From NCBI GenBank assembly GCA_910575585.1, contig CAJTGF010000008.1:62001-126000 (forward strand): a DNA stretch of 64,000 nucleotides, read 5' to 3'. Positions 1 through 16,742 of this stretch are shown piece after piece; positions within the stretch are counted from its first letter, which is position 1; the number at the start of each line of letters is the position of its first letter. Under the pieces are notes generated by a model that was given only the letters and a program-made list of their open reading frames with translations, was not told the origin of the DNA and did no database searches. This DNA comes from Clostridiaceae bacterium (GTDB lineage Bacteria > Bacillota > Clostridia > Lachnospirales > Lachnospiraceae). The translations under genes and the position numbers were made by a program.

Positions 1-36
1 GTGCTTTAAACAATAGGAAGAACGGAGGACAGAAAC

Positions 37-2262: not shown

Positions 2263-2386
2263 GGAGGGCAGATGTTTGGGCAAGGCAATGAAGTTAGCAT
2301 GTGAAGTTGGCATGATTTGACAACAGAAGAAACAGAGGGAATTTTGATTTCAGAGAATGAATGAAAAAAGAAGGAGAAACGAACCT

Positions 2387-4222
2387 ATGGGAAAGACGAA
2401 GATTCTTGAAAACTGGACATTTACCCGTTCCCTGCCGGCCCCTTTTGACGCGGAAGTGCTGAAGAGAGGAAAAAAGGATTCCACGGAGGAAGCCTGTCTG
2501 TCGGTCCACAACAAAATGACACGGGGAAGGCGGGCCACCTTAAACAGCGTCACCCTCCGGGGAATGCTTCTGGCGGCTGACATCATAAACGGAGAGCGCA
2601 GAGGGGCTCTGGGAGTGGAGACAGAAAAGGGGCAGATCTGCCGGTATTATGCGGAGATCGTGGATTCTTCAGGAGCAGGGGATGAGATACGGATTTTCCT
2701 CTATGACCCGAAAAAGGGAAGCTGGAGGGCTTCTGTCAAAAAAGAAAAGACCATGTCCCCGTATCCCAGGATTGGCGAGAACGGGGCCAGCGGGAAGGAG
2801 CTGTTTTTACTTCTGGCTTATGCCAGCATGATCCTGGGGCCTGTCTATGACGGGGAGTTTGAGGGAAGTTTCCAGACCTTTGTGAAGGAGAAGGCAAAGG
2901 GATTTCCGGACATGGACCTTGCCATGGAGTGCGCTTTTTTATGCTGTGACAACCTGTACCGGAGGCTGGAAAACCGGGATACTCTGAAAGAAATGGGAAT
3001 CCCCTTCCACAATGACGAGATCGCTTCGGGAAATGTGCCACTGGTGCCCATGTCGCGTTTTAAGAAAGGTTCCTATAAACCCACCAGGGAGGATTTCGGG
3101 ACATTTCAGGTCCTGAAGGTGAAGGAAGAGATAGAAACTTTGGGAACTGTGGGGGAACTGAAATCCAGATATAACCGGGATTTTTCTTTAACCGAAAATG
3201 AGAAACAGCAGGTTCCCTCCCTGCCGGACCATTACCAGGTTCCGGTGGAGGTGTCGGAGATCGTGGAAGCAGTGCTGCATACGCCTATGCGGGTGTTTAT
3301 GAGCGCCGGGGAGTCCGGCACGGGCAAGACCACCAACGCCAAAATGGTGGCCCAGCTTTTGGGAATGCCCTACTATTTCTTCACCTGCGGCGAGGGGACG
3401 GATGAGACGGACCTGGTGTCCACCATGATTCCCAACATCGGGAGGAAAGAGGCCAGGCCGGCTGTGGAGCTGCCTACCTTTGAGGACATGATCATGGACC
3501 CGGCTTCCGCCCTTGCGTGTGTTTGCGGCAGTTATGAGGAGGAGATCAGTCAGGAGGAGGCGTTTCAGAGGGTTTTGTCGGCCATGTATCAGACCGGCTT
3601 TCAGAACGGACAGGGGGAGAAGGATTATGTCATGGTGGAATCCAGCATTGTCACCGCCTGCAGGAGACCTTCGGTCATTGAGATTCAGGAGCCTTCGGTC
3701 ATCACAAAGCCGGGAACCCTGGTGAAGCTGAACGGGCTTCTGGATGACGGAGCCGCCATTACCCTTACAAGCGGGGAGGTGGTGAGAAGGAACCCGGAGA
3801 CGGTGATTCTTCTGACCACCAACATGGGCTATAAGGGCTGCCGGGGATTCAATGAGTCGGTGCTGTCCAGAATGCGGATGATCCACTACTGTGAACCCCT
3901 GACGGCAAAGGGCATGGTGGAGCGTGTCCTGAAGCGGGTGGCAGGCATGGATAAGGATACCCTGGAGAAAATGGCGGAGACGGTATGCGAAATTCAGAAA
4001 TACTGCCGGACGGAGATGATCACGGGAGGCGTGTGCGGATACCGGGAGTTTGAGGACTGGGTATGGGCTTCTCTTGTGCAGAAGGATATCTGCGGCGCGG
4101 CAAAAAGGACGGTGGTTGCCAAGGCAGCGCCGGAGGCGGAAGAGCGGGAGGAAATTTATAAGACCCAGATACTCACCAAGTTTGAGGTGGAGAGCGGAGC
4201 CGGAGGAGCGAAGGCTGCGTAG
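2387..4222 (+). CDS. MoxR-type AAA+ ATPase
   Basis: An AAA+ ATPase of the MoxR/dynein-related (AAA_5) kind, expected to act as a chaperone that remodels a partner. ATG 2387 is preferred over ATG 2357 because AAGGAG lies 10 bases before it; this gives 611 residues. The Walker A motif GESGTGKTT is near residue 308. A later segment, ETVILLTTNMGYKGCRGFNESVLSRMRM, fits sensor 1 and the arginine-finger region. The N-terminal 200 residues are not recognised. The next gene encodes a VWA protein with an HExxH-like site, and MoxR plus VWA gene pairs are a known functional unit. The protein ends in AKAA. Confidence 0.8.
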   Translation: MGKTKILENWTFTRSLPAPFDAEVLKRGKKDSTEEACLSVHNKMTRGRRATLNSVTLRGMLLAADIINGERRGALGVETEKGQICRYYAEIVDSSGAGDEIRIFLYDPKKGSWRASVKKEKTMSPYPRIGENGASGKELFLLLAYASMILGPVYDGEFEGSFQTFVKEKAKGFPDMDLAMECAFLCCDNLYRRLENRDTLKEMGIPFHNDEIASGNVPLVPMSRFKKGSYKPTREDFGTFQVLKVKEEIETLGTVGELKSRYNRDFSLTENEKQQVPSLPDHYQVPVEVSEIVEAVLHTPMRVFMSAGESGTGKTTNAKMVAQLLGMPYYFFTCGEGTDETDLVSTMIPNIGRKEARPAVELPTFEDMIMDPASALACVCGSYEEEISQEEAFQRVLSAMYQTGFQNGQGEKDYVMVESSIVTACRRPSVIEIQEPSVITKPGTLVKLNGLLDDGAAITLTSGEVVRRNPETVILLTTNMGYKGCRGFNESVLSRMRMIHYCEPLTAKGMVERVLKRVAGMDKDTLEKMAETVCEIQKYCRTEMITGGVCGYREFEDWVWASLVQKDICGAAKRTVVAKAAPEAEEREEIYKTQILTKFEVESGAGGAKAA

Positions 4223-4355
4223 GCAGGGAGTGATGTTTAATCCACAGATACGGCTGCATGGTCAGGGCAGACAGGGTGCCGGAACCCACAATGGCAAGCT
4301 TTTGTGTATGTGAGAAATTTGATATGCTGGAAAGCCGGTACAGAAGGGAGAAGCT

Positions 4356-6893
4356 ATGAATGGAGTACAACGTAAGCGGAAAGAAGTCAAAAAGATCAGG
4401 GAGCAGATGACGGATAAGGAATTGTTTCTGTCAAAAGCGTACCATGATTCTTTAAGGAAATTTGCGAGAGTGTTGGGAGGGAACCAGGCCGTGGGCCTGG
4501 TTCTTGCCTATACAAAGGAGGAGGATTCCAGGATTGCCCTCACAGACGGAAATACCATATTTTTAAACACGGCCAACATCATAACGGAGCAGTTTCTGCA
4601 CCGAAAGGGAAAAATGGCAAGTCATGAGGGACTGGTGGCCCATGAGTGCGGCCATATCCGTTATTCGGATTTTGACCGGAGGACAATCTATACAAACGGT
4701 TTTTCTCAGGGGCGCATTTTTCCAAAGCCGCCAGAGGGGCAGACTCCGGCGGAAAAGCGGGCGGCGGAGGAACTGAAGCAGTTTATCAGACGGAGGGACC
4801 AGGCGGCGGTGTCGGTCATTGCCATGACAGCCGCTCATCTCAACAACCTGTTGGAGGACGTGTACATTGAGGGCAAAATGTGCCAGCAGTATCCGGGAAG
4901 CGTCCGGACGTCTATTCAGAGAAATACAGCGGTTCTTCTGGGGCGGATTCCCACGGCTTCGGAACGGAAGACGGAAAAGAACAATGGCCTGGATATGATG
5001 ATAGACTTGCTCCTTCGGTATGCGAGAAGCGGGGAGACAGAGGAGGAGAAGGCGTATGACAGACAGTACCGGTCCTGCTTGGAAGCCTGCCGCAGCCGGA
5101 TTGATGAGGCGGTGGGAAGTGATGATCCGGATATCCGGTATGTTGTTGCCAATGAATTGCTGCTTAAGATATGGAAATATATTAAGAAGGCGATTCAGAC
5201 AGCCAGGACGGATTTGGGCAGGGATTTTTTGAAGCTGTCGCCAGAGGAACAGGAGAAAAAGGCCAGGGAATACCTGAAGGAAAACTTGAATCCAAGCTGT
5301 TTATCAGGCGGATATGACGGAGGAGGTGGAAGGCCGAAAACCATAGAGGGCTGGGATGGCAGTCTGGATTCTGAGGAAACTTCCGGGCAGGAAGGAAGTG
5401 GCCAGGAGAAGGAGGGCCAGACAGAAAAGGAAAAGCAGGAGGGCCAGACAGAAAAGGAGAAGCAGGGGAGTCAGACCGAAAAGGAGAAGCAGGAGGGCCA
5501 GACAGAAAAGGAGAAGCAGGAGGGCCAGACAGAAAAGGAGAAGCAGGGGAGTCAGATAGAAAAGGAGAAGCAGGAGAGCCAGACCGAACCGGAAGGAAAG
5601 GAGAGTCCGGGTGGTAAAGAAGAGAAGGCGGGAAACAGAGAGAAGGAGGAGTCCCGGAGTGAGAAAGGCCAAAGGAACAATGGGAGAGAGGAAAACGGTT
5701 CCCAGAAACAGGCTTCCAAGGACAATGAGTCGGAGACAGGAGAAGAAAGTTCCCAGAAAGAAGAAAAGGAGGAGCAAGGTGAGAAGGATGAGGACAAGGA
5801 TGGCCGCACCAAGGTTCCTTCCCACATCATTTTACTTCGGGTTGGGCAGCTGGCTGTCCAGGGCCAGGGAGAGGAGTGTGGTGAATTTGAAGGAGAGGTG
5901 ATTGGCCTGCTTGGGCAGGAAGACGGCGCCGTAAGAACCGGAGAGATCGGGGGAGATTTTTTGGAAATCCAGAATAAAGCGGCAGAGGAGGTTTATGGAA
6001 AACAGGCGGAGGTAAAGTTAAAGAAGCGTTTGGAAGATGAGGCAAAGGATCTGTCTCCTGAGGGAATCCACAAAGGCGTTCCGGTCAAGATTTACCGGGA
6101 GCTGGAGATTACGCCAAGAATGGAGGCGGGATATAGGGAGATCGAATCGGAAATAAAAAAGGCCGCCGGCCGTTTAAGACAGATGGTGGAGGAGATTTTG
6201 ATCCGAAAGGAAGGGGGAGTCATGTCCGGCCTTTACATGGGGAAACGGTTAAGCAGAGGGAACCTTTACCGGCAGGATGGGAAAATCTTTGAAAAGAGGA
6301 TTTTGCCGGAGGAGGGATTTTCCGTTGCCTTTGGCGTCCTGGTGGACAATTCTGGTTCCATGATAGTTGATAACCGAATCGGGCAGGCCAGGAAGGCGGC
6401 TCTGGTTCTATATGAGTTCTGCAGGTCTTTGTCCATTCCCATTACGGTTTACGGACATTCTACCTGCAGCGTGCTTTTTCATGGCGACTTCCGGGAAGGA
6501 GTGGCCATGTATTCCTTTGCTGAGTTTGATTCCGTGGATGGGAAGGACCATTTGAGGATTCAGGGCATGAAGCATTGTCAATGCAACCGGGACGGCCTTG
6601 CCCTGCGGTTTGTGGGGAAACATTTGGCGGAGCGGGAGGAAGAGGTGAAGATTTTGACTCTGATTTCTGATGGGAGTCCTTATGCGGTCAACTATGGTGG
6701 AGAGACGGCAAAAGAAGATTTAAAAATGGCGAAGCAGGAGCTTCACAAAATGGGGGTTACGCTGTTTTCTGCGGCGATTGGAGATGACCGGGAGGTGATT
6801 GAGGATATTTATGGGGACAGTTTTTTAAATATCTCAAATCTTGGGACCATGCCCCAGAAGCTGGCGGCTCTGCTTTTGCGGTATCTGCGATAG
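4356..6893 (+). CDS. VWA-domain protein, CobT-like partner of the MoxR ATPase
   Basis: A von Willebrand factor A protein of 845 residues. An N-terminal AHECGHIRYSD segment near residue 96 resembles a zinc-peptidase helix (HECGH). The middle, at about residues 325-490, is very acidic, low-complexity and partly a tandem repeat (E-G-Q-T-E-K-E-K-Q units). The C-terminal VWA domain has a metal site DNSGSM near residue 666 and ends with typical VWA segments (LISDGSP, FSAAIGDD). The layout, flexible acidic linker before a VWA domain and preceded by a MoxR gene, matches CobT/CobS-like and MoxR/VWA pairs. Substrate unknown. A GGGAGAAG site supports ATG 4356. Confidence 0.8.
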   Translation: MNGVQRKRKEVKKIREQMTDKELFLSKAYHDSLRKFARVLGGNQAVGLVLAYTKEEDSRIALTDGNTIFLNTANIITEQFLHRKGKMASHEGLVAHECGHIRYSDFDRRTIYTNGFSQGRIFPKPPEGQTPAEKRAAEELKQFIRRRDQAAVSVIAMTAAHLNNLLEDVYIEGKMCQQYPGSVRTSIQRNTAVLLGRIPTASERKTEKNNGLDMMIDLLLRYARSGETEEEKAYDRQYRSCLEACRSRIDEAVGSDDPDIRYVVANELLLKIWKYIKKAIQTARTDLGRDFLKLSPEEQEKKAREYLKENLNPSCLSGGYDGGGGRPKTIEGWDGSLDSEETSGQEGSGQEKEGQTEKEKQEGQTEKEKQGSQTEKEKQEGQTEKEKQEGQTEKEKQGSQIEKEKQESQTEPEGKESPGGKEEKAGNREKEESRSEKGQRNNGREENGSQKQASKDNESETGEESSQKEEKEEQGEKDEDKDGRTKVPSHIILLRVGQLAVQGQGEECGEFEGEVIGLLGQEDGAVRTGEIGGDFLEIQNKAAEEVYGKQAEVKLKKRLEDEAKDLSPEGIHKGVPVKIYRELEITPRMEAGYREIESEIKKAAGRLRQMVEEILIRKEGGVMSGLYMGKRLSRGNLYRQDGKIFEKRILPEEGFSVAFGVLVDNSGSMIVDNRIGQARKAALVLYEFCRSLSIPITVYGHSTCSVLFHGDFREGVAMYSFAEFDSVDGKDHLRIQGMKHCQCNRDGLALRFVGKHLAEREEEVKILTLISDGSPYAVNYGGETAKEDLKMAKQELHKMGVTLFSAAIGDDREVIEDIYGDSFLNISNLGTMPQKLAALLLRYLR
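5412..5588 (+). repeat. 27-bp coding tandem repeat (about 6.5 units)
   Basis: Seven consecutive 27-bp units, the last one partial, encode the nonapeptide E/G-G/S-Q-T/I-E-K-E-K-Q inside the VWA gene. Units differ by only one to four bases, so copy number could change by slippage without breaking the frame. It is a coding minisatellite, not a CRISPR array: there are no spacers. Confidence 0.85.
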
Positions 6894-7065
6894 TGGAGAT
6901 ACATTTGAATCCATTTTGGAAACCTGACAGGGAGCGTAGAATGGGGATTCCATAGTGGAGAACATTGGGACAGCCTGACAGGGCTTAGAGGTGCATGTGG
7001 CGGAAAATTAGCTGAAAAGGTGCGGAAGGGATTGCCAGAGTGTGTAGATATAACAGGAGGATTTT

Positions 7066-7788
7066 ATGGTGAAAAATGAGAAGAAAGACTGGTCACAGGA
7101 GGTATCCGGCCAGATCGCGGTGTGCAAGACGGATAAGACATTGCTGGAATTGTGGGACAGCTTAAAGCCTGCGTCTGAATTATTTCCGGCCCATATTCAT
7201 GCGTCTGGGGAGAAGGCGGAAATGGGTGAGCGGTCCCTGATCCGGTTGAATATGCTGGATTACAGCAGCGGTACGGGAGAGAAGACGGTGAGCGTTTACG
7301 CCAACATCAGCCCGGAGGAGGCCAGGTACATCTATTCGGCTTTGTCCTGTCATCTGCTTGATTTTGGATTTTCCCAGGATAAGATTTTCGGGGAGCCGGA
7401 TGAGAAGGGGTACAGCATTGTGACAAAGCTTCAGATTGCGCGGTATGATGTGGACCAGAAGGGGAATAAGCGGAATTATCCCTGGTATGTGGAGATTCAG
7501 AATGGAGCCGGGGTTTCCGTGAGAAACGCCAATGGCGGGCGGTACTGTAAGAAGGACAGCTATGTGTGCCGGAGAAAGGTGAGGATGTTTTTAAGCGACC
7601 GGGATATGTTTGTGCTGTTTTGTAGGGCGGATTCTTATATCCGGGCGTTTGAGATGGAGTACGCTTTCAGGCAGAACCGGATCGGGAACTTTGCGAATCT
7701 GCTTCATCTCCTGAATGTGGAGATTCAGAAGGTGGGGGATTTGGTGCAGGTTTATGGGGAAGGCGATGGGCTGCGGAAGGTGAGCTAG
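7066..7788 (+). CDS. hypothetical protein, same run as the MoxR/VWA pair
   Basis: Unrecognised soluble protein of 240 residues. ATG 7066 follows GGAGGATTTT, a strong ribosome site. No signal peptide or membrane segment is visible. It contains a segment (YPWYVEIQNGAGV) reminiscent of small single-domain beta proteins, but no catalytic motif can be named. It is the last gene before a terminator and before the AT-rich RiPP cassette, so it probably closes the RecD2-MoxR-VWA transcription unit. Base composition matches the element, not the cassette. Confidence 0.6.
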   Translation: MVKNEKKDWSQEVSGQIAVCKTDKTLLELWDSLKPASELFPAHIHASGEKAEMGERSLIRLNMLDYSSGTGEKTVSVYANISPEEARYIYSALSCHLLDFGFSQDKIFGEPDEKGYSIVTKLQIARYDVDQKGNKRNYPWYVEIQNGAGVSVRNANGGRYCKKDSYVCRRKVRMFLSDRDMFVLFCRADSYIRAFEMEYAFRQNRIGNFANLLHLLNVEIQKVGDLVQVYGEGDGLRKVS

Positions 7789-7837
7789 GAAGAAGGAAAA
7801 AGAGTGTAGAGTAAGAAAAATAAGGTGATTTGAGTGG

Positions 7838-7876
7838 AAAGCCTCTCCTGAATTTGGAAGTTCGGGGGAGGCTTTA
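7838..7876 (+). terminator. terminator-like hairpin closing the first operon
   Basis: AAAGCCTCTCCTGAA at 7838-7852 pairs with TTCGGGGGAGGCTTT at 7861-7875 (about 13 pairs). The T-run after it is weak. From here on the DNA becomes sharply AT-rich. Confidence 0.65.
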
Positions 7877-8216
7877 CTGAAAAAATACTATTTTATTAAT
7901 AAATTCATAACTAAGGAACTCTTTTCTGAAAATGGAGTATTGATGTTATTTTGGATATATGTATAATGGTTGTAGAAGAATTAAAGTACTTATCTGGTCC
8001 TGGAAGATAAAACTGTAGATGAAATTAGCGAAATTCAATTTTAAATGAAATCTGAAAAATTCAAAGAAGATATTTTTATTAAATGTCTAAATTAACTGTG
8101 TTGAATTAGTTTTTTATGGAGCATTTACCGTTATATCCCTATTAAATTGGACTTATAACAGTAGTGATACATGTGAATTGCAAAAATAAGGTTTGATTTC
8201 ATGGTTTTTGATGTTT

Positions 8217-8264
8217 CTGTGTGATATATTAACAAAAATACTGTGTGATTTAGTAACAATATAG
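8217..8264. repeat. tandem 24-bp repeat upstream of the RiPP promoter
   Basis: Two adjacent copies that both begin CTGTGTGAT, at 8217-8240 and 8241-8264, and agree at about 18 of 24 positions. They end about 30 bases upstream of the -35 box of the RiPP promoter, the usual place for an activator site. The rest of 7877-8294 shows no gene I can support. Confidence 0.5.
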
Positions 8265-8294
8265 TTCAAACTGAAAAACTCGTCATGAAATATA

Positions 8295-8323
8295 TTGAAA
8301 GATAAAAGTGAACGTGATATACT
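8295..8323 (+). promoter_or_regulatory. predicted promoter of the RiPP operon
   Basis: TTGAAA at 8295-8300 and TATACT at 8318-8323 are separated by exactly 17 bases, a near-consensus vegetative promoter. Transcription would begin about 8330, some 45 bases before the first radical SAM gene. Confidence 0.6.
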
Positions 8324-8374
8324 AGTTTTGCTAGAAAAAATGTGATTTTGTAAAAATTGGACCGAGGTAATAGT

Positions 8375-9283
8375 ATGCAATACATAGCCTTAACACAAAG
8401 ATGTAATTATTCATGTAATTGCTGCCCATGTATAACTCATGACAGTTCATCCGATTTGGATTTTGATATATTAAAAGAAAAAATAGAATGTTTGTCCGAT
8501 GATCCATTAGAAAGAATCACTTTGTCAGGAGGAGAACCGACAATCTATAAGCATTTTTTTGAGGTAATGAGATTGTTGTTTCAAAAGAGAAAAAAAGTCA
8601 TTTTTTTAACGAATTCATCACGGTTGAGTTCAGATGATTTTTTAAACGAATTGAACGTTTGTTATCCTCTAAATAATTTGGAGATTATTACTACCCTTTT
8701 TAGTGTCTATCCAGGGCAACATGATCAAGAATCTGGTGTTATAGGTAGCTTTGCTAATACAATAAAGGCTATTCATAAATTGTTGCTGTACGGTACAAGA
8801 GTTACTTTAAAACTATGCATAACAAAAAACAACTACTTGCAATTAAATTCGTTTTATGACTTTATGAGAACAGAATTTTCTGATGATGTAAATTTTCAAA
8901 TTAGTGGGATAGATTATATTGGAATGTCTGAAAAGACACGCTACCAAATGATGCTTACTTGCGAGCAAATACGTAGCCAGTTAGATCCATTACTTAAAAA
9001 AATCAATTATTTAAAATTAAGACATTTAGATAATAGGGTGGTTTTTATATCTAATTTACCATTATGTGCAGCGTCATTAGATTATAGTAATTATTTTGTT
9101 TTAAATGGGGAAATGGGACAAATTGATTATCTTTCAGCACAAAAGGATATGAAAAGTAGATATTATGATTCCATAAAGGGATCGGAGTTGTGTTTTCAAT
9201 GTATTGCATATGATAATTGTCCTGGTACTTATTCATCAACATTTCAAGTAATGGGTGATGCATATGTGACCCCATTTAGGTGA
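8375..9283 (+). CDS. radical SAM protein, first enzyme of the Trp-x-Ala peptide cassette
   Basis: A radical S-adenosylmethionine enzyme of 302 residues. The cluster motif CxxxCxxC is C10, C14 and C17, followed by a GGEP-type segment (LSGGEPTIY) near residue 55. The C-terminus keeps a half-SPASM cysteine set, with CFQCIAYDNC giving Cx2Cx5C. A longer reading from TTG 8357 exists, but ATG 8375 has a GAGG site 7 bases before it. The gene is AT-rich like its three downstream neighbours and unlike the flanking element. It resembles the smaller partner of two-enzyme radical SAM peptide systems such as HxsB/HxsC. I infer that it modifies the Trp-x-Ala peptide; the reaction is unknown. Confidence 0.85.
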   Translation: MQYIALTQRCNYSCNCCPCITHDSSSDLDFDILKEKIECLSDDPLERITLSGGEPTIYKHFFEVMRLLFQKRKKVIFLTNSSRLSSDDFLNELNVCYPLNNLEIITTLFSVYPGQHDQESGVIGSFANTIKAIHKLLLYGTRVTLKLCITKNNYLQLNSFYDFMRTEFSDDVNFQISGIDYIGMSEKTRYQMMLTCEQIRSQLDPLLKKINYLKLRHLDNRVVFISNLPLCAASLDYSNYFVLNGEMGQIDYLSAQKDMKSRYYDSIKGSELCFQCIAYDNCPGTYSSTFQVMGDAYVTPFR

Positions 9284-9315
9284 TATTTATTTATAAATTG
9301 TTAGGATGTGAATTC

Positions 9316-9594
9316 ATGATTCAACATATATATAATGATGATAATATAGGGGATTTGTATATATCGCCATATTGTTTATTTAATATATCAGATGATAGTT
9401 TGGAAATATCTTCTTGGAAACAAAGGGAAATTGTGCGTTTGCATGTTTTACATCCACGAAAAGTTATTATGATATTAGAAAAGGGAGTCACGGCTGAGGA
9501 ACTTATTTCGATATTGCAGACAGAACTTTCTTGCTCATTTGAAGATGCACAGAATACACTTAAAATGTTAGTCAATAAGAAGATAATAGAATGA
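9316..9594 (+). CDS. small PqqD-like (RRE-type) peptide-binding protein
   Basis: A 92-residue protein between the two radical SAM genes. The C-terminal half (LEKGVTAEELISILQTELSCSFEDAQNTLKMLVNKKIIE) has the helix pattern of PqqD-type RiPP recognition elements: a hydrophobic turn, 'T.eEl...l', then 'd....l..L...g.i'. Such domains bind the leader of a precursor peptide and present it to the radical SAM enzyme. HxsD-like proteins fill the same slot in the His-Xaa-Ser system. ATG 9316 is chosen over an upstream ATG at 9280 that overlaps the previous gene. Function is inferred from context and fold pattern only. Confidence 0.65.
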   Translation: MIQHIYNDDNIGDLYISPYCLFNISDDSLEISSWKQREIVRLHVLHPRKVIMILEKGVTAEELISILQTELSCSFEDAQNTLKMLVNKKIIE

Positions 9595-9604
9595 AGGTAA
9601 AAAT

Positions 9605-10990
9605 ATGTATACAAAGACATTGACTAATTATACGATATGTAAAGAATTTACTATAAAGCGAGCCATCATATTTAATGAGAATGATGTAAGTTATCTTTAT
9701 AACACATTAAATGGGCGAGGATTATTTTTAAAAGAGTCCTTACTAAAAAAGCTATTGAATGGAAAAGTAGATGAGAATTTTCTTTTTTTGATGATTCAGC
9801 GTGGCATATTTGAAACAAATGATAATATTATTGATTTACATGATTCAAAACCGACATTTTTTTTAATTAATTTGACAGATAGCTGTAATTTGAGATGCAT
9901 GTATTGTTTTAGAGATGTCCATATTAAGGAATCTGTTAATATAAATTCAAATGAGCTAAAGAAAATTTGTCAAAAGATTATTGAATATTGCAAAAATCAT
10001 AAAGTTAATCGAATTTTTGTACAACCATGGGGTGGAGAACCACTAATATCATATGAAAAAATCATTGAAATTGATGATATATTCCGACAGACTGATTTAG
10101 AATATCAGATTGTTCTTTCTACAAATGCCACATTAGTTACAAGTGAGGTAGCAAGAGCGCTTTTTCATAGAAAAGTTCATGTTGGTATTAGTCTTGATGG
10201 TAATGAAGAATTGCAAAATCTTCAACGTCCATTTAAAAACAGAGAAACGAATAGTTTTCAAGAGGTTTGCAAAGGAATTCAAAATTTGCGAGATGCTGGT
10301 TATGGTGATATAGGGGTAATATGTACAATTACTAAGATAAACATAGATCGAATTGAAGATATTCTAAATGTTTTTATAAATGAAATTAAACTACATACAG
10401 TGAAACTGAATTTAGTTAAAACGAACCCATTCTCACCAGAAAGTGAATATATTGCTGTATCAGACACAGATAAAATAAACCGTTTTTATGATGTTTTAAT
10501 TGATACTATTATAAATACAAATAGAAGGGGATATAATTTTTTTGAACGAAATTTATGTGATAAAATAGTAAATTTGTTTGGAAACAATACAGGGAATATT
10601 TGTGTATCAAGGGGGTGCTTAGGTGGAGATAAGATGATTGCGGTTAATCGTCAAGGAGATATATTTCCTTGTGACTTGGTTGATGTTGAAAAAGTGAAAA
10701 TTGGAAATCTTTTTAGCGACTTTACTGTTCCAGATATGATTGAGCAATCGAAGAAGGAAAATCCTTTTTTTCAGTCAAATGTTATGGAAATATGTAATGA
10801 ATGTCCTTGGAAAATATATTGTGAGGGAGGTTGTTCTGCTTCTGTTATATATAATGGAGAAAAGGGACAATGTGTTGATCATTTAGAATGCCGTATTAAT
10901 CAGATTTTGTATCCTAAATTGCTGAGTTTAGCTTTAAAAAATCCAGAAGCTATTTGGTATCTTACAAATAAGAAGATAAAAATTTTATAA
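9605..10990 (+). CDS. radical SAM/SPASM peptide maturase
   Basis: A 461-residue radical SAM enzyme with a full SPASM domain. The SAM-cluster cysteines are C94, C98 and C101 in CNLRCMYC. A GGEP motif (WGGEPLIS) follows near residue 141. The C-terminal region carries the complete SPASM signature: C, then G and C (CLGGDK...GDIFPC), then CNECPWKIYCEGGC (Cx2Cx5Cx3C), then a final C. This is the architecture of RiPP maturases that make thioether, C-C or C-O crosslinks using auxiliary iron-sulphur clusters. The first 80 residues could be a leader-binding domain. The precursor gene starts 19 bases after the stop. Confidence 0.9.
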   Translation: MYTKTLTNYTICKEFTIKRAIIFNENDVSYLYNTLNGRGLFLKESLLKKLLNGKVDENFLFLMIQRGIFETNDNIIDLHDSKPTFFLINLTDSCNLRCMYCFRDVHIKESVNINSNELKKICQKIIEYCKNHKVNRIFVQPWGGEPLISYEKIIEIDDIFRQTDLEYQIVLSTNATLVTSEVARALFHRKVHVGISLDGNEELQNLQRPFKNRETNSFQEVCKGIQNLRDAGYGDIGVICTITKINIDRIEDILNVFINEIKLHTVKLNLVKTNPFSPESEYIAVSDTDKINRFYDVLIDTIINTNRRGYNFFERNLCDKIVNLFGNNTGNICVSRGCLGGDKMIAVNRQGDIFPCDLVDVEKVKIGNLFSDFTVPDMIEQSKKENPFFQSNVMEICNECPWKIYCEGGCSASVIYNGEKGQCVDHLECRINQILYPKLLSLALKNPEAIWYLTNKKIKIL

Positions 10991-11009
10991 AGTTAGGAGG
11001 ATATAATGT

Positions 11010-11162
11010 ATGAATATGGAATTATTAACAGGTGAAGAAGTTACTATTAACAATCAAAATGTAGAGTTGATTTTTTATGATGGTATTAACACTGCTGAAG
11101 ATTGGACTGCATGGCCTGCATGGACTGCATGGGATGCATGGACTGCATGGGATGCGAGCTAA
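11010..11162 (+). CDS. RiPP precursor peptide with six Trp-x-Ala repeats
   Basis: A 50-residue peptide. Residues 1-31 are an ordinary acidic leader (MNMELLTGEEVTI...). Residues 32-49 are six perfect W-x-A triplets, WTAWPAWTAWDAWTAWDA, with x = T, P, T, D, T, D, then a final Ser. At the DNA level the core (11103-11156) is a 9-base repeat. ATG 11010 lies 9 bases after a perfect AGGAGG (10995-11000); ATG 11006 gives only a 9-residue peptide and ATG 11016 is too far. It is the last gene of the operon and is followed by a strong terminator. A short repetitive C-terminus behind two radical SAM enzymes and a PqqD-like protein marks it as a modified-peptide precursor. No protease or exporter gene is seen. 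Confidence 0.85.
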   Translation: MNMELLTGEEVTINNQNVELIFYDGINTAEDWTAWPAWTAWDAWTAWDAS

Positions 11163-11190
11163 AGAGTTATTATAATTTTTAGGTGAAATG

Positions 11191-11236
11191 AAGGATGTTA
11201 TAAAACTAACTAAGTTAGTTTGGTGACATCCTTTTT
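11191..11236 (+). terminator. intrinsic terminator of the RiPP operon
   Basis: Inner stem AAACTAAC/GTTAGTTT around a TAA loop and outer stem AAGGATGT/ACATCCTT, then TTTTT. It ends the transcript 28 bases after the precursor stop codon. Confidence 0.85.
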
Positions 11237-11305
11237 AAAGAACATTTGATATTTAACATAACCCTTGATATAAATAGTTTACATCATTTTCTAGTATATT
11301 TAGCA

Positions 11306-11339: not shown

Positions 11340-11564
11340 TGAAAGTTGATTTATGCAGTCCACAGACCGCACACACTTTTTGTTCTGGTTCAAACACCAG
11401 AAGCACAGGGCAGGGAAAACTCCCTAAGCCAAGACATCACATTTCAGTCAGAGACACATTTGTTTCTGCCTGATAAAAATTCAAGAAAACCAAATAACAG
11501 CGGCTATTTTGCTGCAGGTCAGAGAGACATCCCATACAAAGAATGGAACGATGTCTCTTTTTTG
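11340..11564 (+). ncRNA. candidate small RNA or attenuator leader ahead of an HTH gene
   Basis: About 225 bases run from the promoter to an intrinsic terminator (AGAGACATC at 11523-11531, GATGTCTCT at 11550-11558, then TTTTTT). Inside are a perfect CTGGT/ACCAG hairpin and a nested GGC-GGG/CCC-GCC hairpin. Reading frames cross it, but none starts with a ribosome site. It could be a free small RNA or a leader controlling the downstream HTH gene. No known riboswitch class was recognised. Confidence 0.45.
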
Positions 11565-11604
11565 CGTGCAAAATCCGCCGGAAAGGAGGAGACAGAAAAG
11601 ACTA

Positions 11605-11924
11605 ATGAAAAAAGCTCAGGGACAAAGGGATATGATACAGACGGCTGTTTCTGCCTGTTCATCGCCATTTTAAACGGTGTCGGCGCCAGCGCAGCCCGAA
11701 GGCTTTATGACAAAGGCCCAGGACAACAAAGGCCCGGCAGCCCTTTGCCAAGAGGCAGGCCGCCGGACCGGACAGCAGTGCCGAAAAGCGCAGAAAGAAA
11801 CCGAAGGATTTATGCACTAAGGAAAAAGGGATACAGCCTGGAAGCGATTTCCGATATTCTTGGCTGTGACAGTTCTACTGTAAAGAGAAATCTAAAAAAG
11901 CGAAGGAGGAAACGTGAATCATGA
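11605..11924 (+). CDS. small helix-turn-helix protein, start or frame uncertain
   Basis: The C-terminal 60 residues are clear: a basic helix-turn-helix (YALRKKGYSLEAISDILGCDSSTVKRNLKKR) ending at TGA 11922-11924, overlapping the next start as ATGA. The beginning is not clear. The best ribosome site (AAAGGAGGA) serves ATG 11605, which opens a 22-codon frame starting MKKAQGQRDM. A -1 shift near 11655 would join it smoothly to the HTH frame and give a protein of about 107 residues. The alternative is a TTG start at 11562, directly behind the terminator hairpin. Probable regulator of the operon that follows. Confidence 0.5.
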
Positions 11925-12862
11925 CATTGAAAACATTTGCGGAGAAGATGAGAGTCAGGGTTCAGGAAAAGGCAGGGGATCATTATGAGGTGAACCTGGA
12001 GCACAGTTTGGGAAACAATGGGACAGAGAATATCAGGCTGACTGTAAAAACGGACAGCGACAGCAACACTGCCCCGGCAGCGCTGTTAAATGGATATTAT
12101 GACCAGATGACAGATAAGGAATCGGAAGATCTGTTGGAGAAGATAGCTGACGAAATTGTAAGGCTGTGCTTTTTTTCCGATTATGTGGAAAACTATGGGG
12201 AAATGCTGGCAAGACAGGTTATGGATTATGACTTCTGTAAAGAAAAACTCCTGTTTAAGCTGGTCAATACCGGTTTGAACCAGGAGCTGCTCCTCAATAC
12301 GCCCCATATTCCCTTCCTTGACCTTTCCATTATCTTTTATGTGAGGTTGGAAGAAAAGGATGGAATGGAGATGGGGGTTACGGTCAATGAATATCTAAGG
12401 GAGACATGGAAGGTGACAGCGCAGGAGTTATACCAGCAGGCATTAAGGAATGCTCCTGAAAAAATGCCGGCCAGGTTTGTCGAGATGGACGAGACTGCTG
12501 TGTCCTTATTAGTAATAGATGGAGAAATCACACCGGAGCTCTTAAACATTCTGCCGCCTGTGGAGAACATGAAGGATAATACTCTGTACTGCCTGACGAA
12601 TCGTCTGATCAGAAATGGGGCTTCTGTTTTGTTATATCCCGGAGTGTTAAAGGAATGTGCCGCAACATGCGGAAAAAATTTAGTGATTCTTCCAAGCAGT
12701 GTGGATGAGGTCCTTATCATGTCCCTCAGTGATGAGAACAGGCTGAGTGATCTGACGGAAATGGTTCGGGGTATCAACCAGTCGGTATTGGAGCCGGCTA
12801 AGGTGCTTTCCGACCACATTTACCGCTATGACTGCCAAAATGACCAGATTGTGATGGCGTAA
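11921..12862 (+). CDS. DUF5688-like hypothetical protein
   Basis: A 313-residue soluble protein resembling the DUF5688 family common on Lachnospiraceae mobile elements. It begins with a 'F...v...' N-terminal helix, a conserved 'YY..' segment (LNGYYDQMTD) and a long alpha/beta body, including LYCLTNRLIRNGASVLLYPGVL near residues 225-245. No catalytic residues can be named. AAGGAGG upstream and the four-base overlap with the HTH gene show translational coupling. Function unknown. Confidence 0.65.
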   Translation: MTLKTFAEKMRVRVQEKAGDHYEVNLEHSLGNNGTENIRLTVKTDSDSNTAPAALLNGYYDQMTDKESEDLLEKIADEIVRLCFFSDYVENYGEMLARQVMDYDFCKEKLLFKLVNTGLNQELLLNTPHIPFLDLSIIFYVRLEEKDGMEMGVTVNEYLRETWKVTAQELYQQALRNAPEKMPARFVEMDETAVSLLVIDGEITPELLNILPPVENMKDNTLYCLTNRLIRNGASVLLYPGVLKECAATCGKNLVILPSSVDEVLIMSLSDENRLSDLTEMVRGINQSVLEPAKVLSDHIYRYDCQNDQIVMA

Positions 12863-12883
12863 CCCATAAGGAAAGGAGCAGTC

Positions 12884-13252
12884 ATGCATGTTCATAAATA
12901 TGCGGATTTAGCCTGTTTTCAGGAGATTGGAGTGGGAGGCATGCTGCCGGCTACAGAAGAGTACCGGGAGTTCATCAAAAGACTCCACCCGTCCCAGTTC
13001 CTCTCTGGAGGCGTTCGGGCCACGCTCTATGAGATTTCCTATTCCTACACCACCATAAGGGGAAACGGGAGGACGGCAAAGAAATACACGCTGATGAACC
13101 CGGATCACGAGGAGGCAGGCATAGAAATTGAAATGAAGCTAAGAGACTGGGTAAGCAGTCATAACGCAAAACGTCCATACCGGATAATTTCCAACGTGAC
13201 CATTCTGGAGATGAAACCAATGGCTTTTGCGAATATCCGATTTGAGATTTAG
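12884..13252 (+). CDS. hypothetical protein
   Basis: A 122-residue protein that I do not recognise. ATG 12884 follows AAGGAAAGGAGC. It is soluble, of mixed charge, and includes ISYSYTTIRGNGRTAKKYTLMN and a C-terminal beta-like segment. It lies in the element's long same-strand run between the DUF5688-like gene and the PP-loop gene, with matching base composition. Confidence 0.55.
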   Translation: MHVHKYADLACFQEIGVGGMLPATEEYREFIKRLHPSQFLSGGVRATLYEISYSYTTIRGNGRTAKKYTLMNPDHEEAGIEIEMKLRDWVSSHNAKRPYRIISNVTILEMKPMAFANIRFEI

Positions 13253-13421
13253 AACCGTTTCATTCCCTCATTTCCTGGAGAAAACTCCGGGTTGTCCCTT
13301 AGAGGCAGGGCTGCTGTGAGCTTTGGCCTTGAAAAAGAACGGTAAGGGGCGTAAAAAGACACACCGGGCAAAGAATGGCTTTTCCGTCAAGAGCAGACAA
13401 TTATGCAAAGGACGGGAGAGA

Positions 13422-14309
13422 ATGGAACAATATACATTTATAGACGAACTGCCAAAAAAGATTGCCAGGGCCATAAGTTTCTTCCAGATGTTTGAGAAGG
13501 CAGCGCTGGGATACCGGCCGGAGGGATATTACCTGGCATTCAGCGGAGGAAAGGACAGCGTGGCGATTTACGGGCTGGCAAAGATGGCTGGGGTAAGATT
13601 CACGGCCCACTACCATTTGACAACCGTGGACCCGCCGGAATTAGTCCGGTTTATCCGAAAGGACTACCCGGAGGTACAGGTGGAAAAGCCGGAGCTTACC
13701 ATGTGGGAGCTGATCGTAAAAAAACAGATCCCTCCTTTGAGGAGAGCCCGCTACTGTTGCGAGGCATTGAAGGAACATGGAGGCGAGGGAGCGTTTACCG
13801 TAACCGGAGTCCGCTGGCAGGAAAGCAGGAAACGACAAAAACGAACCAATCTGGAAATTCTGACTTCTAAAGATCCCATTTACCTAAACTGTGATAATCA
13901 AGAATCCCGCCGCCAGGTGGAAACCTGCGCCTTGAAGGGAAAACGTGTGCTGAATCCTATCATTGACTGGACGGAAGAGGAAGTGTGGCGGTTTATCCGT
14001 ACCTATGGTCTCCCTTACTGTGTCCTGTATGACCAGGGATTTAAAAGGCTTGGCTGTCTGGGCTGTCCCCTTGCAGGAACGAAAAACCGGGAACGGGAAT
14101 TTGCCCGTTATCCCCAGTATGCCAGGGCCTATATCCGTGCCTTTGACCGGATGGTGGAGGCACGCGGGGCTTCGGGCAAACCCAAGGGCAGCTGGAAGGA
14201 CGGGGAGAGCGTGTTCCGGTGGTGGATGTACGGAAATGGAAAAAGGGAGAAGCAGGTGGAAGGGCAGATAAAATTAGAATTTGGAGATGACGCCGGAACA
14301 GCGGCATAG
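13422..14309 (+). CDS. PAPS reductase-like PP-loop ATPase
   Basis: A phosphoadenosine-phosphosulfate-reductase-family protein of 295 residues. It has the PP-loop SGGKDS near residue 41 and a C-terminal cysteine pair, CLGCPLAG, near residue 212, as in iron-sulphur-binding members. On mobile elements this family occurs in DNA or RNA sulfur modification (DndC-like) and in many uncharacterised operons. No other dnd or ssp gene is nearby, so a phosphorothioation role is not supported. ATG 13422, with GGGAGAG just before it, is preferred to a TTG 99 bases upstream. The protein ends in GTAA. Confidence 0.8.
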   Translation: MEQYTFIDELPKKIARAISFFQMFEKAALGYRPEGYYLAFSGGKDSVAIYGLAKMAGVRFTAHYHLTTVDPPELVRFIRKDYPEVQVEKPELTMWELIVKKQIPPLRRARYCCEALKEHGGEGAFTVTGVRWQESRKRQKRTNLEILTSKDPIYLNCDNQESRRQVETCALKGKRVLNPIIDWTEEEVWRFIRTYGLPYCVLYDQGFKRLGCLGCPLAGTKNREREFARYPQYARAYIRAFDRMVEARGASGKPKGSWKDGESVFRWWMYGNGKREKQVEGQIKLEFGDDAGTAA

Positions 14310-15120
14310 GAAGGAGGCACTGATCTTTTTGGAGAAACATTCATGCAGGAGCTGCAGGAATCTGGAGAAAGAAAGGAAAGAGGTGATGGAAGGCCGTCTG
14401 AAAGGGCGGTACCGCTATGGGTGCAGCAGCCAGAGCAGTGGATTTGTCTGTGGTTTTTTGGCTGGCGATGAGGATTTGGAGACACTGTCCTGCAGGTTGT
14501 GGCAGGGACAGTCTGAGAGGAAGACGGAGAAAGAGGCACAAAAACTGGAGAAAGAGCTGGACGCAAACCTTCAGGGGCTGTTTGACCGCTGGAATGAGTG
14601 GCACATCAGGGGCTGTCCGGAGGCAAAGGAGACGGATGGGGTGTATTTAAACCGCCTCCGCCTTGCCATAAAGGGGCTTATGGAACGGATTGAGGAGACG
14701 CTTGAAGAGTCCCAGTATCCGGAAAGCTATTATTCCCCGCTGCCGCCGGAGATTTCGGAAGATTACATAGCGGATATGGATGGTTTGGCAAAGAGTGCAG
14801 AGAGGGCTTTACACCGCTACAGAAACTCCCCGGATTATCTCTGGCTGGAAACCTATGTGAAGGAGCAGAGTGAGAAACGGAAGGAGGACGAGAGAGCGGC
14901 GGTATTTCTTGACCATGTGAAGGTTTTGGAGGAGGCGGTCAGCCAGAATCAGTTTCTTCTTATGAAGCAGGAGGTACAGCAGGCAGGGCTTCTGGCAGAA
15001 CTGGAAAAATATAGGAGAGCTGTTTTGCAGAAGGAACATAAGGCGCCCAGAAGAACGGGCAGGAAAGGCAAAAAAGAAATGTCCGGACAGTTTGCGCTGT
15101 TTGAGGAGAAGGCGTCCTGA
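14287..15120 (+). CDS. hypothetical protein with C-terminal beta-clamp-like motif
   Basis: A 277-residue, mostly helical and highly charged protein whose start overlaps the previous gene by 23 bases. An N-terminal Cys pair (CRSCRN) with further cysteines at about 46 and 55 could bind zinc. A long coiled region fills residues 80-260. The last residues contain QFALF, close to the QL(S/D)LF motif that binds the DNA polymerase sliding clamp. Function unknown; DNA metabolism is a guess from this motif and the neighbours. Confidence 0.6.
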   Translation: MTPEQRHRKEALIFLEKHSCRSCRNLEKERKEVMEGRLKGRYRYGCSSQSSGFVCGFLAGDEDLETLSCRLWQGQSERKTEKEAQKLEKELDANLQGLFDRWNEWHIRGCPEAKETDGVYLNRLRLAIKGLMERIEETLEESQYPESYYSPLPPEISEDYIADMDGLAKSAERALHRYRNSPDYLWLETYVKEQSEKRKEDERAAVFLDHVKVLEEAVSQNQFLLMKQEVQQAGLLAELEKYRRAVLQKEHKAPRRTGRKGKKEMSGQFALFEEKAS

Positions 15121-15193
15121 CGGGGGAAAAGCTTTGGAGGGCGCGTAAGCATTGGCAGCTAAAAATGAAAGACGGTATGGGAAGGAGACAGGA

Positions 15194-15733
15194 ATGGATG
15201 ATCAGATGTTGGTAAAGAACCTGTTCAATGACATGTTTGTATTTTTAAACGGGACCCAGCCTCTGGGACTGGAGCCGTTGATTGACGTGTATCAGGACGA
15301 ACCGCTGCTCATGGCATTTATCGGCAGGCTGGATGAGGCGGTAAAGGTTCCCTACAACCAGGTGATGAAAGAGTGTTACGCCTTTTTTAAGCAGTACGCA
15401 GGGGGAGGCTACACGGATGAAGTCTGGGAGAGGATTGTGAAGGACATCCGGGACTTTGACCAGAAGTGGCAGAATCCCTGGTGCCGGGGAATTATCCTGG
15501 CGCTGCTGGAACTGCTGGAACGGGAGGACAAGGAGAGACAGGGGCTTGAAAACCAGGACGGTTTAGCAGAAAACGGAGTACAGGAGCCAGGGCTTCAGGA
15601 AACAGAAGAACCCTATGAACAGGAGCCTGGACAGGAAGGAATGGAGTTTATTCAGGAGGCAGACGGAGAAATGCCCTTGACGAAAATGGAATATGGGGAG
15701 GACGGGCAGCAGGAAGGCAGCCTTGCGGCCTGA
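15194..15733 (+). CDS. hypothetical protein
   Basis: A 179-residue acidic protein. ATG 15194 is preferred over TTG 15152 because GGAAGGAGACAG sits directly before it. The first 115 residues look like a compact helical domain; the rest is an acidic Gln/Glu-rich tail. It ends in GSLAA, strikingly like an ssrA-type tail. A strong terminator follows 5 bases after the stop. Not recognised. Confidence 0.55.
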   Translation: MDDQMLVKNLFNDMFVFLNGTQPLGLEPLIDVYQDEPLLMAFIGRLDEAVKVPYNQVMKECYAFFKQYAGGGYTDEVWERIVKDIRDFDQKWQNPWCRGIILALLELLEREDKERQGLENQDGLAENGVQEPGLQETEEPYEQEPGQEGMEFIQEADGEMPLTKMEYGEDGQQEGSLAA

Positions 15734-15738
15734 TCTGC

Positions 15739-15775
15739 AAAAAGGCTGGGAAAAGATCACATTCCCGGCCTTTTT
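15739..15775 (+). terminator. intrinsic terminator
   Basis: AAAAAGGCTGGGAA at 15739-15752 pairs over 14 positions with TTCCCGGCCTTTTT at 15762-15775 (one G-U wobble), ending in five T. Confidence 0.8.
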
Positions 15776-15902
15776 GGCCTTTGCCTCCCCGGCGAAAGCC
15801 TGCTGTGCCAGACAGGCGTTTGACTTAGCAGCAGGCATTTGTGAGTGGTGAAGGCAGAGAATCATCAGGGGCAAAATTCTATAAACAGTAGGGAGAATGA
15901 AC

Positions 15903-16742
15903 ATGGCCAAACGTATTTTTGAAAAAATGGAGAACATCCATGAAGTCAACCGCATGGCAGCAGAGCTGCGGCGGCTGGGAATGAGGGGGAAGCTAAAGGA
16001 ACTGGCAGGAAAAAACCAGGTAATCGATGAGGATTTTGAGGCATTCTTTCTGGGAAAGCGGTATTTTCTTGTAGACGCGGGAGAGACCCAGAAGACCTAT
16101 GACACAGCCAGGGCCAAACTGATGGATGAAATGCTTATGCTGAACGATCCTCTTTTTGGAAACGTAATCTGCGGTTATCTGCTCCGGTGCTGCGTTGAAC
16201 CGGAATTTCAGGAATCCGTGCTTCAGGCCCATAAGACGCTGCAGCGGTGTATCGAATATGTGATGGAGCAGGCTTACGGACTGCTGGATGAAAACCAGAA
16301 AGAGGCCAGAAGGAACACGGCGGTGGCTGTAGTATCAGACCAGGTATTTCAGTGGGCAAAGAACTATTATACTCTGGACGACAAAGCTGCCCTGGACAAA
16401 AAGTGGAAAAAGGCAGAAAAGGAGTTCCTGGACCGGAATAAGCCAAAGGAAAACAAGGCAACGGGCAGGGGGACATCGAAAAAGAAGACTTCCAAAACTT
16501 CCAAAGCCTCTAAGACATCAAGAACATCAAAAAAGAGTTTGGAGGCAGGGACGTCTGTAAAATCCGGAGCCAGTGGCAGCGCGGCAGATTCGGAGAAAAG
16601 TCTGGCAGAAAAAAAGGAAACCGAGGATAGGCTATCGGAGAATATCCAGGCAGAGGATTTGCCGGAGACAGAGCCGAACACTTCAGAGAAAGGGCAGATT
16701 GAAGGGCAGGTCTCCATGTTTAACATGGGACCGGCGGCATAA
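15903..16742 (+). CDS. PcfK-like / AcrIIA9-family protein
   Basis: A 279-residue protein. Residues 70-150 (MDEMLMLNDPLFGNVICGYLL... then NTAVAVVSDQVFQWAKNYYTLDD) match my memory of the PcfK-like family, some members of which are annotated as Cas9 inhibitor AcrIIA9. It is two genes away from PcfJ, the expected neighbour. From about residue 180 there is a Lys/Ser/Thr-rich low-complexity tail and then an acidic stretch. The C-terminus holds QVSMF, a possible clamp-binding motif, and ends in GPAA. ATG 15903 is better spaced from GGGAG than ATG 15897. The conjugal role is known only by association; Cas9 inhibition is not claimed here. Confidence 0.65.
   Translation: MAKRIFEKMENIHEVNRMAAELRRLGMRGKLKELAGKNQVIDEDFEAFFLGKRYFLVDAGETQKTYDTARAKLMDEMLMLNDPLFGNVICGYLLRCCVEPEFQESVLQAHKTLQRCIEYVMEQAYGLLDENQKEARRNTAVAVVSDQVFQWAKNYYTLDDKAALDKKWKKAEKEFLDRNKPKENKATGRGTSKKKTSKTSKASKTSRTSKKSLEAGTSVKSGASGSAADSEKSLAEKKETEDRLSENIQAEDLPETEPNTSEKGQIEGQVSMFNMGPAA

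Follow-up and report, generated by a model that had tools for sequence, protein, structure and literature searches.

A paired radical SAM operon with a Trp-x-Ala precursor that probably works like a triceptide pathway

The precursor and the position two residues after tryptophan

What is made from a small peptide that ends in six contiguous Trp-x-Ala triplets and is encoded next to two radical SAM enzymes? The question is raised by a four-gene operon on the + strand of the window, a stretch of 64,000 nucleotides (contig CAJTGF010000008.1, positions 62,001 to 126,000) from a Clostridiaceae bacterium. The genes run in the order C-D-B-A, at the coordinates first described, and probably form a paired-radical-SAM system for a ribosomally synthesised and post-translationally modified peptide (RiPP) that works like a triceptide pathway; its reaction, the atoms bonded, how B and C share the work and its activity are what we infer here. 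An earlier sequence-only reading had also proposed a RiPP-type operon, which is supported.

Gene A (11010..11162, +), an open reading frame (ORF), encodes the 50-residue precursor MNMELLTGEEVTINNQNVELIFYDGINTAEDWTAWPAWTAWDAWTAWDAS, made up of a 31-residue leader and the core WTAWPAWTAWDAWTAWDAS. Its monoisotopic mass, unmodified, comes to 5788.61. The core (11103..11159, +) consists, from its sequence, of six contiguous Trp-x-Ala triplets, with x being T, P, T, D, T and D, and a single Ser after the final triplet. Trp is its sole aromatic residue, there is one partner at the second position after each Trp (+2) and no spacers, and the precursor has no Cys. When the 19-residue core was shuffled 200,000 times, a run of six triplets never came up and a run of five came up twice. 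The core DNA is a 9/18-bp tandem array, with the 18-bp repeat at 94% match and near-uniform codons, so the regularity of the triplets may partly reflect duplication, and selection on it cannot be demonstrated from a single copy. An alternative frame over the core (HGLHGLHGMHGLHGM) was dropped; by eye it is without a ribosome-binding site of its own.

Relatives were reached from a 31%-identical SPASM enzyme of genome G154, then genome G732 and then a contig of a viral collection, and a four-sequence profile gave 12 loci in a species-genome collection in a two-peptide-pattern scan that was not exhaustive. One of these, L149, is the G154 locus; it coincides with L143, and the two count as a single locus. 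Adding the window, G732 and the contig from the viral collection brings the number of distinct loci to 15, 14 besides the window. All 15 have enzymes B and C, with C truncated in L157, and a small Trp-rich ORF within 8 kb; D is present in 14. Identity of B runs from 28 to 36% across the 12 SPASM enzymes aligned.

Around each core, ORFs of 28–130 residues no more than 8 kb away were taken as candidate precursors if their C-terminal 35 residues held at least three Trp. From these we picked by eye the ORFs that lie on the strand of the operon and show both a leader and a Trp core, assigning inner Met starts to some, and dropped the other candidates (10 of 11 in the window), a choice that selects for Trp and not for the +2 residue. 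The 16 precursors hold 80 Trp, 10 of them without a +2 residue. At the remaining 70 the +2 residue is Asn (35), Ala (11), His (9), Asp (8), Arg (4), Gln (1), Lys (1) or Glu (1), all 70 falling in this set and presenting, as in triceptides, an aromatic-x-X3 core with an X3 of crosslinkable type, which in the window is always Ala. Gly, Ser and Thr are never found at +2, compared with 29, 38 and 52 occurrences at +1, +3 and +4; Gly and Ser make up 21% and 15% of the cores, and shuffles with Trp held fixed lead one to expect 33.1 Gly, Ser or Thr at +2 (range 22–44). For all 12 absent residue types, a set defined post hoc after the +2 counts, the figure is 0 against 41.2 in the shuffles, with a minimum of 30 in 2000; without the three long-repeat precursors it is 0 of 40 against 20.6 (minimum 10). 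The precursors are not independent, the cores of L151, L152, L153, L156 and L157a being very similar, and dropping four of these five leaves 0 of 62 at +2. The entropy at +2, 2.16 bits, is under the lowest of 1000 shuffles (2.68).

L145 has ten Asn at +2, encoded by two codons, and four different residues at +1, which is what one would expect of a +2 residue maintained at the level of the protein. This bears on the suggestion that the Trp-x-Ala array is a recent tandem expansion of DNA in a decaying cassette and is left unprocessed, which would fit the 18-bp repeat with its near-uniform codons. A comparison of the operon DNA with 99 genomes, the window's own included, could also be read that way, since it gave elsewhere only matches of at most 60 bases and no copy in the 98 others. 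However, the enzyme genes are open with their invariant residues kept, the terminator is intact, and relatives of the L145 type hold the +2 residue while its codons vary, making such decay very unlikely.

In triceptides, according to the available text of PMC11002830, radical SAM enzymes link an aromatic residue i to the beta carbon of residue i+2, XncB and OscB joining Trp to Arg, Asn or Asp, and HaaB and ScaB joining His to the beta carbon of Ala. The absence at +2 of Gly, which has no beta carbon, and the presence of Ala, which has that carbon only, lead us to propose a Trp–Ala ring in the window copy. The sequence-only reading had placed a crosslink within each triplet or to the next one, and the +2 rule makes the former the best reading. 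It is quite unlikely that the enzymes instead bond one Trp to another (i to i+3), or a Trp to some residue beyond the triplet it belongs to, a scheme for which there is a parallel in the Trp–Trp ether of darobactin, made with the radical SAM enzyme DarE (PMC9055067, in the portion available). Regular spacing would suit it: Trp stands at every third residue in the window precursor, and 26 of the 59 spacings in the other precursors are 5. Those 59 run from 4 to 10, with none at 3, so that over the family the Trp–Trp spacing varies from 3 to 10 whereas the class of the +2 residue is fixed, which favours i to i+2.

Ala occupies +2 in six of six triplets in the window and in five of ten in L146, and at no other locus. 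The B enzymes of these two loci are sisters (81/76, and 90/96 in a second tree), so Ala at +2 may go with that branch, though with two cases the sample is small. On this point the C trees, in which there are long branches, that of the window's C included, do not decide between sister and non-sister C enzymes for the two Trp-x-Ala loci. Since the relatives carry Trp-x-N/D/H/R/K/Q/E, Trp-x-Ala is one variant and not a family signature. The idea in the sequence-only reading that Trp-x-Ala is the defining core of a new family was therefore given up. What is special to the window copy is its exclusive Ala at +2 and its triplets without gaps.

Enzymes B and C, small protein D and the proposed reaction

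Gene B (9605..10990, +), which encodes 461 residues with the family motif QPWGGEP, matches Pfam Radical_SAM at 60.2 bits and SPASM at 21.7 bits against a cut-off of 21.5; domain scores and fold matches identify it as a radical SAM/SPASM maturase beside the precursor, the arrangement of triceptides. Its nearest solved folds are 5wgg, which we take to be CteB, and an anaerobic sulfatase maturase. Gene C (8375..9283, +) encodes, from its ORF and family comparison, an HxsC-like radical SAM enzyme of 302 residues with a CX3CX2C motif and four C-terminal cysteines (C231, C273, C276 and C282), invariant in 12 aligned sequences. As cluster-type cysteines are invariant in the aligned sets of both B and C, both look catalytically competent.

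On sequence comparison, both enzymes are distant kin of HxsB and HxsC that fall far under those families' cut-offs, B reaching 122.2 bits against HxsB (cut-off 370) and C 98.5 bits against HxsC (cut-off 267.9). The parallel with the Hxs system already drawn from the sequence is thus sustained. For C, HxsC is closest by far in NCBIfam, the next family scoring 57.4. The curated NCBIfam cut-offs for cyclophane maturases were not passed by B either, whether for GrrM/OscB (70.7 bits, cut-off 310), YhhB (77.4, 445), AmcB (66.6, 425) or FxsB (64.4, 370). Aligning the family profiles with hhalign gave 99.6% for Nostoc HxsB and 99.5% for HxsC, and trees part the B and C family from two HxsB (100/100) and two HxsC (99/97). 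When a more distant system, L144, is added, its C falls inside the family and its B with HxsB, both weakly supported. A true HxsB and HxsC pair in a genome of the window's taxonomic family (G207; L175 1222-3731) scores 525 and 315 bits, respectively, above both cut-offs.

Searched against the PDB, the C profile finds SkfB (E 6.9e-16), cytosylglucuronate decarboxylase (6e-15) and, over about 100 residues, the epimerase EpeE/YydG (1.8e-8). The last of these matches would be in keeping with a change other than crosslinking, such as epimerisation, carried out by one or both enzymes or by C alone after B has crosslinked, although SkfB and the decarboxylase rank higher; two-enzyme pathways can indeed run two different reactions, as bicyclostreptin does in the account given in the accessible part of PMC11002830. 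Such an activity is nevertheless unlikely, since a +2 rule this strict, without Gly, suggests that the side-chain beta carbon is where the chemistry takes place, and C is much nearer to HxsC than to any other family.

L155 and L153 carry B and C as a fusion; no D was found in L153, and the N-terminal part of its B is missing. Fusions occur in both orders, B-C and C-B, and these, together with the precedent of thuricin CD (PMC12093266, as far as its available text goes), make it quite possible that B and C work as a single complex and that, as with TrnC/TrnD, just one of them does the essential radical chemistry. The invariant cluster-type cysteines of both enzymes speak against a single active partner. 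A joint complex is compatible with a triceptide-like reaction and not opposed to it.

Gene D (9316..9594, +) encodes a protein of 92 residues that structure prediction (predicted local distance difference test, pLDDT, 95) folds into three strands (20-24, 29-33 and 38-42) followed by three helices (47-56, 60-71 and 75-87), the fold of a RiPP recognition element (RRE) in a small stand-alone protein within a RiPP operon. All of the first ten Foldseek matches are to RREs or to RiPP enzymes, with E below 0.001 for the top match alone. D is accordingly predicted to be a stand-alone RRE. The sequence-only reading had called it PqqD-like, which holds for the RRE/PqqD-type fold but not for the sequence, as six D proteins, that of the window included, had no match to PqqD (PF05402). 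There was no match to HxsD among 14 D proteins, hhalign against one HxsD gave 0.2%, and nothing was found below E 0.3 for D against the PDB by sequence. Membership of D in PqqD or HxsD by sequence was dropped. The small protein of L144 does match PqqD, at 40.1 bits.

It would seem likely that D binds the leader of the precursor and presents the core. Together with C, B would abstract a hydrogen at the beta carbon of each +2 residue and bond this carbon to the indole ring of the Trp. Because the +2 residue in the window is always Ala, as many as six adjoining three-residue Trp–Ala rings might arise, each triplet losing 2.016 Da and the whole core up to 12.09 Da, and the leader would presumably be cleaved by a host enzyme. 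C might work in a joint complex as in thuricin CD, in an ordered second reaction as in bicyclostreptin, or in both ways. The full form of this proposal, a rigid ladder of six adjoining rings from an indole carbon to the Ala methyl carbon, built by a paired B/C complex guided by D, is put forward only tentatively.

Several points weigh against a triceptide-like reaction or against the ladder. The precursors were selected for at least three Trp and several of the 16 are close relatives; the Gly-rich +4 position also has an entropy under its lowest shuffle (2.51 against 2.74), so +2 is not the sole constrained position. The best NCBIfam scores of B are almost even across HxsB, DynA, PapB and sulfatase maturases, so that cyclophane chemistry is not singled out by its sequence. 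By VIA-align, D is most like BmdC, which is an oxidase from a non-ribosomal pathway. In the available text of PMC11002830, Trp–Ala is not among the crosslinks and His, Lys, Gln and Glu are not named as partners; Ser, a partner in the published MscB (same text), is never found at +2 here. By our own reasoning, Ala gives only a primary radical, a harder reaction, and with Trp at every third residue neighbouring rings might clash, in which case only some triplets may react. The SEK[LMI] motif in the leaders of 10 of the 15 other precursors is absent from the window leader, where TGEEVTI resembles, by eye, TGEMLSF of G154.

Distribution, neighbouring genes and genomic setting

The hosts of the system include Eisenbergiella tayi, Blautia caecimuris, Ruminococcus bromii, several Lachnospiraceae, a Bacilli metagenome-assembled genome and a Methanomethylophilaceae archaeon, the last with fused B and C and a Trp-x-D/N precursor (L155 7905-10211, 7633-7908 and 10233-10415). 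The B/C/D/A family is rare. B had one strong match (G154) and three weak ones among 396 other genomes of the taxonomic family; its profile found only the window at E 1e-60 among 398 genomes of the phylum, the window's own included, and only the window and G732 among 392 of the order. The C profile, against 397 genomes of the family at E 1e-35, found G154, G397 and G207 besides the window. G397 has a more distant system, whose contig stops next to the small gene, so that no precursor is seen. Among plasmids (131 records) and phages (68 records), protein searches turned up nothing closer than distant radical SAM matches, all below 60% identity, and of eight stretches of viral contigs found with the window protein alone, none was confirmed. 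As a DNA pattern, the W-x-A repeat matched at least 120 stretches of viral contigs. Scans of viral contigs with A11 and A12 returned the L141 contig again, together with 3 and 24 weaker radical SAM loci. The precursors of 10 relatives gave only two weak NCBIfam matches, with L155 matching GrrA/OscA1 at 16.8 bits (cut-off 31) and L157 an unrelated cellulose protein at 10.2 bits (cut-off 410.2).

No protease or exporter gene was seen within the operon. Five larger clusters carry bleomycin-hydrolase-type C1 peptidases (PF03051; L142 12838-14082, L151 2982-4217, L153 3256-4449, L156 1440-2705 and L157 2140-3345), which may be leader peptidases. The same five carry a protein of 316–348 residues (L142 14456-15442, L151 4298-5344, L153 4468-5436, L156 3643-4602 and L157 4265-5215) with a DDLxDxxxD-like motif in all five and no Pfam match in the four scanned; ComQ-like prenyl transfer to Trp by these proteins would be a guess. 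A NUDIX protein is also present in L142, L153 and L156, that of L142 just over the isopentenyl-diphosphate isomerase cut-off. AMP-binding enzymes lie beside the module in L145 (12723-14317, with a phosphopantetheine carrier protein too) and L146 (4394-6724), which suggests acyl tailoring in some members. An FkbM-type methyltransferase is found 3' of the precursor in L149 (5347-6147).

In the window, a plausible ribosome-binding site precedes each of the four genes (by eye). Folding (−22.3 kcal/mol, z −6.9) shows an intrinsic terminator (11190..11234, +), a hairpin whose foot carries a U run; it is absent from the list of a terminator pattern scan, which gave two other sites against 1.0 ± 0.9 in shuffles. 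A promoter-like site, TTGAAA-17-TATACT (8295..8323, +), matches at 10 of 12 positions with an extended −10 in a pattern scan. Such sites number 24 here against 23.1 in shuffles, that is, with no enrichment, and the promoter call is therefore weak. The ORFs, coordinates and hairpin folding bear out the gene layout, precursor and terminator first read from the sequence; the promoter of that reading is present as a site, but one no commoner than in shuffled sequence.

The operon had also been described as AT-rich within a GC-richer element, and the GC fraction is indeed 0.30 in 8300-11240, compared with 0.53 in 1-7800 and 0.50 in 11500-16000. The flanks recur in a genome of the same genus, G003, with 97.0% identity up to window position 7800 and 97.7% from 11301. 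There the DNA next to each flank is different; that on the left includes a BrnT toxin gene and, by eye, a BrnA-like ORF. By GC and flank comparison, the operon lies in an AT-rich cargo segment (7801..11300, no strand assigned), apparently carried in a mobile element. It is likely, from these alignments (L170 and L171), that this is exchangeable cargo at an exchanged site, though the two flanks of G003 sit on two separate contigs. Three serine recombinase genes in a row (22765-27721), with Resolvase and Recombinase domains, are candidate movers of the cargo stretch.

Significance and comparison with known systems

If the proposal is right, the window would encode the first Trp–Ala triceptide crosslink and an unusually long array without gaps, as far as our sources go, made by a so far unnamed family of Bacillota and an archaeon that adds a paired-radical-SAM branch to the triceptides. 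In open-licence literature no Trp-x-Ala core or name for the enzyme pair was found, by which absence from print is not established. The family would offer a natural substrate series (+2 = N, D, H, R, K, Q, E and A) for asking how one family accepts many partners, and the window copy, with one core aromatic, one partner, no spacers and no Cys, a clean substrate. The role of the HxsB/HxsC pairing was still putative in 2022 in the available part of PMC9062424, and kin in named strains, among them Eisenbergiella tayi DSM 26961 and Blautia caecimuris DSM 29492, may help to explain it.

Sactipeptide thioethers need Cys, and a sactipeptide or ranthipeptide was set aside as there is none in the window precursor. 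The closest solved folds for B, 5wgg and the anaerobic sulfatase maturase, belong to enzymes whose chemistry is a thioether or formylglycine on Cys or Ser. In thuricin CD two radical SAM enzymes, TrnC and TrnD, work as one complex (PMC12093266, in its available text), and the fusions suggest the same here. Bicyclostreptin (HghA-D) likewise combines a pair of radical SAM enzymes with a single RRE protein and a single precursor. It is set apart by its description in the accessible text of PMC11002830, where its core is His-Gly-His with O–C and N–C rings; a C-terminal His-Gly-His is absent from the window precursor.

With Hxs the system shares an HxsC-like and HxsB-like pair, a small protein and a triplet repeat near the C terminus of the precursor. 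Unlike Hxs, it has a Trp-x-Ala core (Trp-x-X3 in the family) in place of His-Xaa-Ser repeats, a D protein without an HxsD match at the sequence level, and B and C enzymes under the HxsB and HxsC cut-offs that the same-family control passes. With the triceptides (XncB, OscB, MscB, YxdB, HaaB, YhhB and ScaB) it shares a radical SAM/SPASM maturase and an aromatic-x-X3 core, X3 being Asn, Asp, Arg or Ala in the crosslinked cases published (PMC11002830, available text). In contrast to them, it pairs two radical SAM enzymes with a stand-alone RRE and Trp with Ala, for which the precedent in the same text is with His and not Trp, and its B lies far under the GrrM/OscB, YhhB, AmcB and FxsB cut-offs. 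This seems to be a branch near Hxs that follows the triceptide rule, ordinary in its logic and new in its detail.

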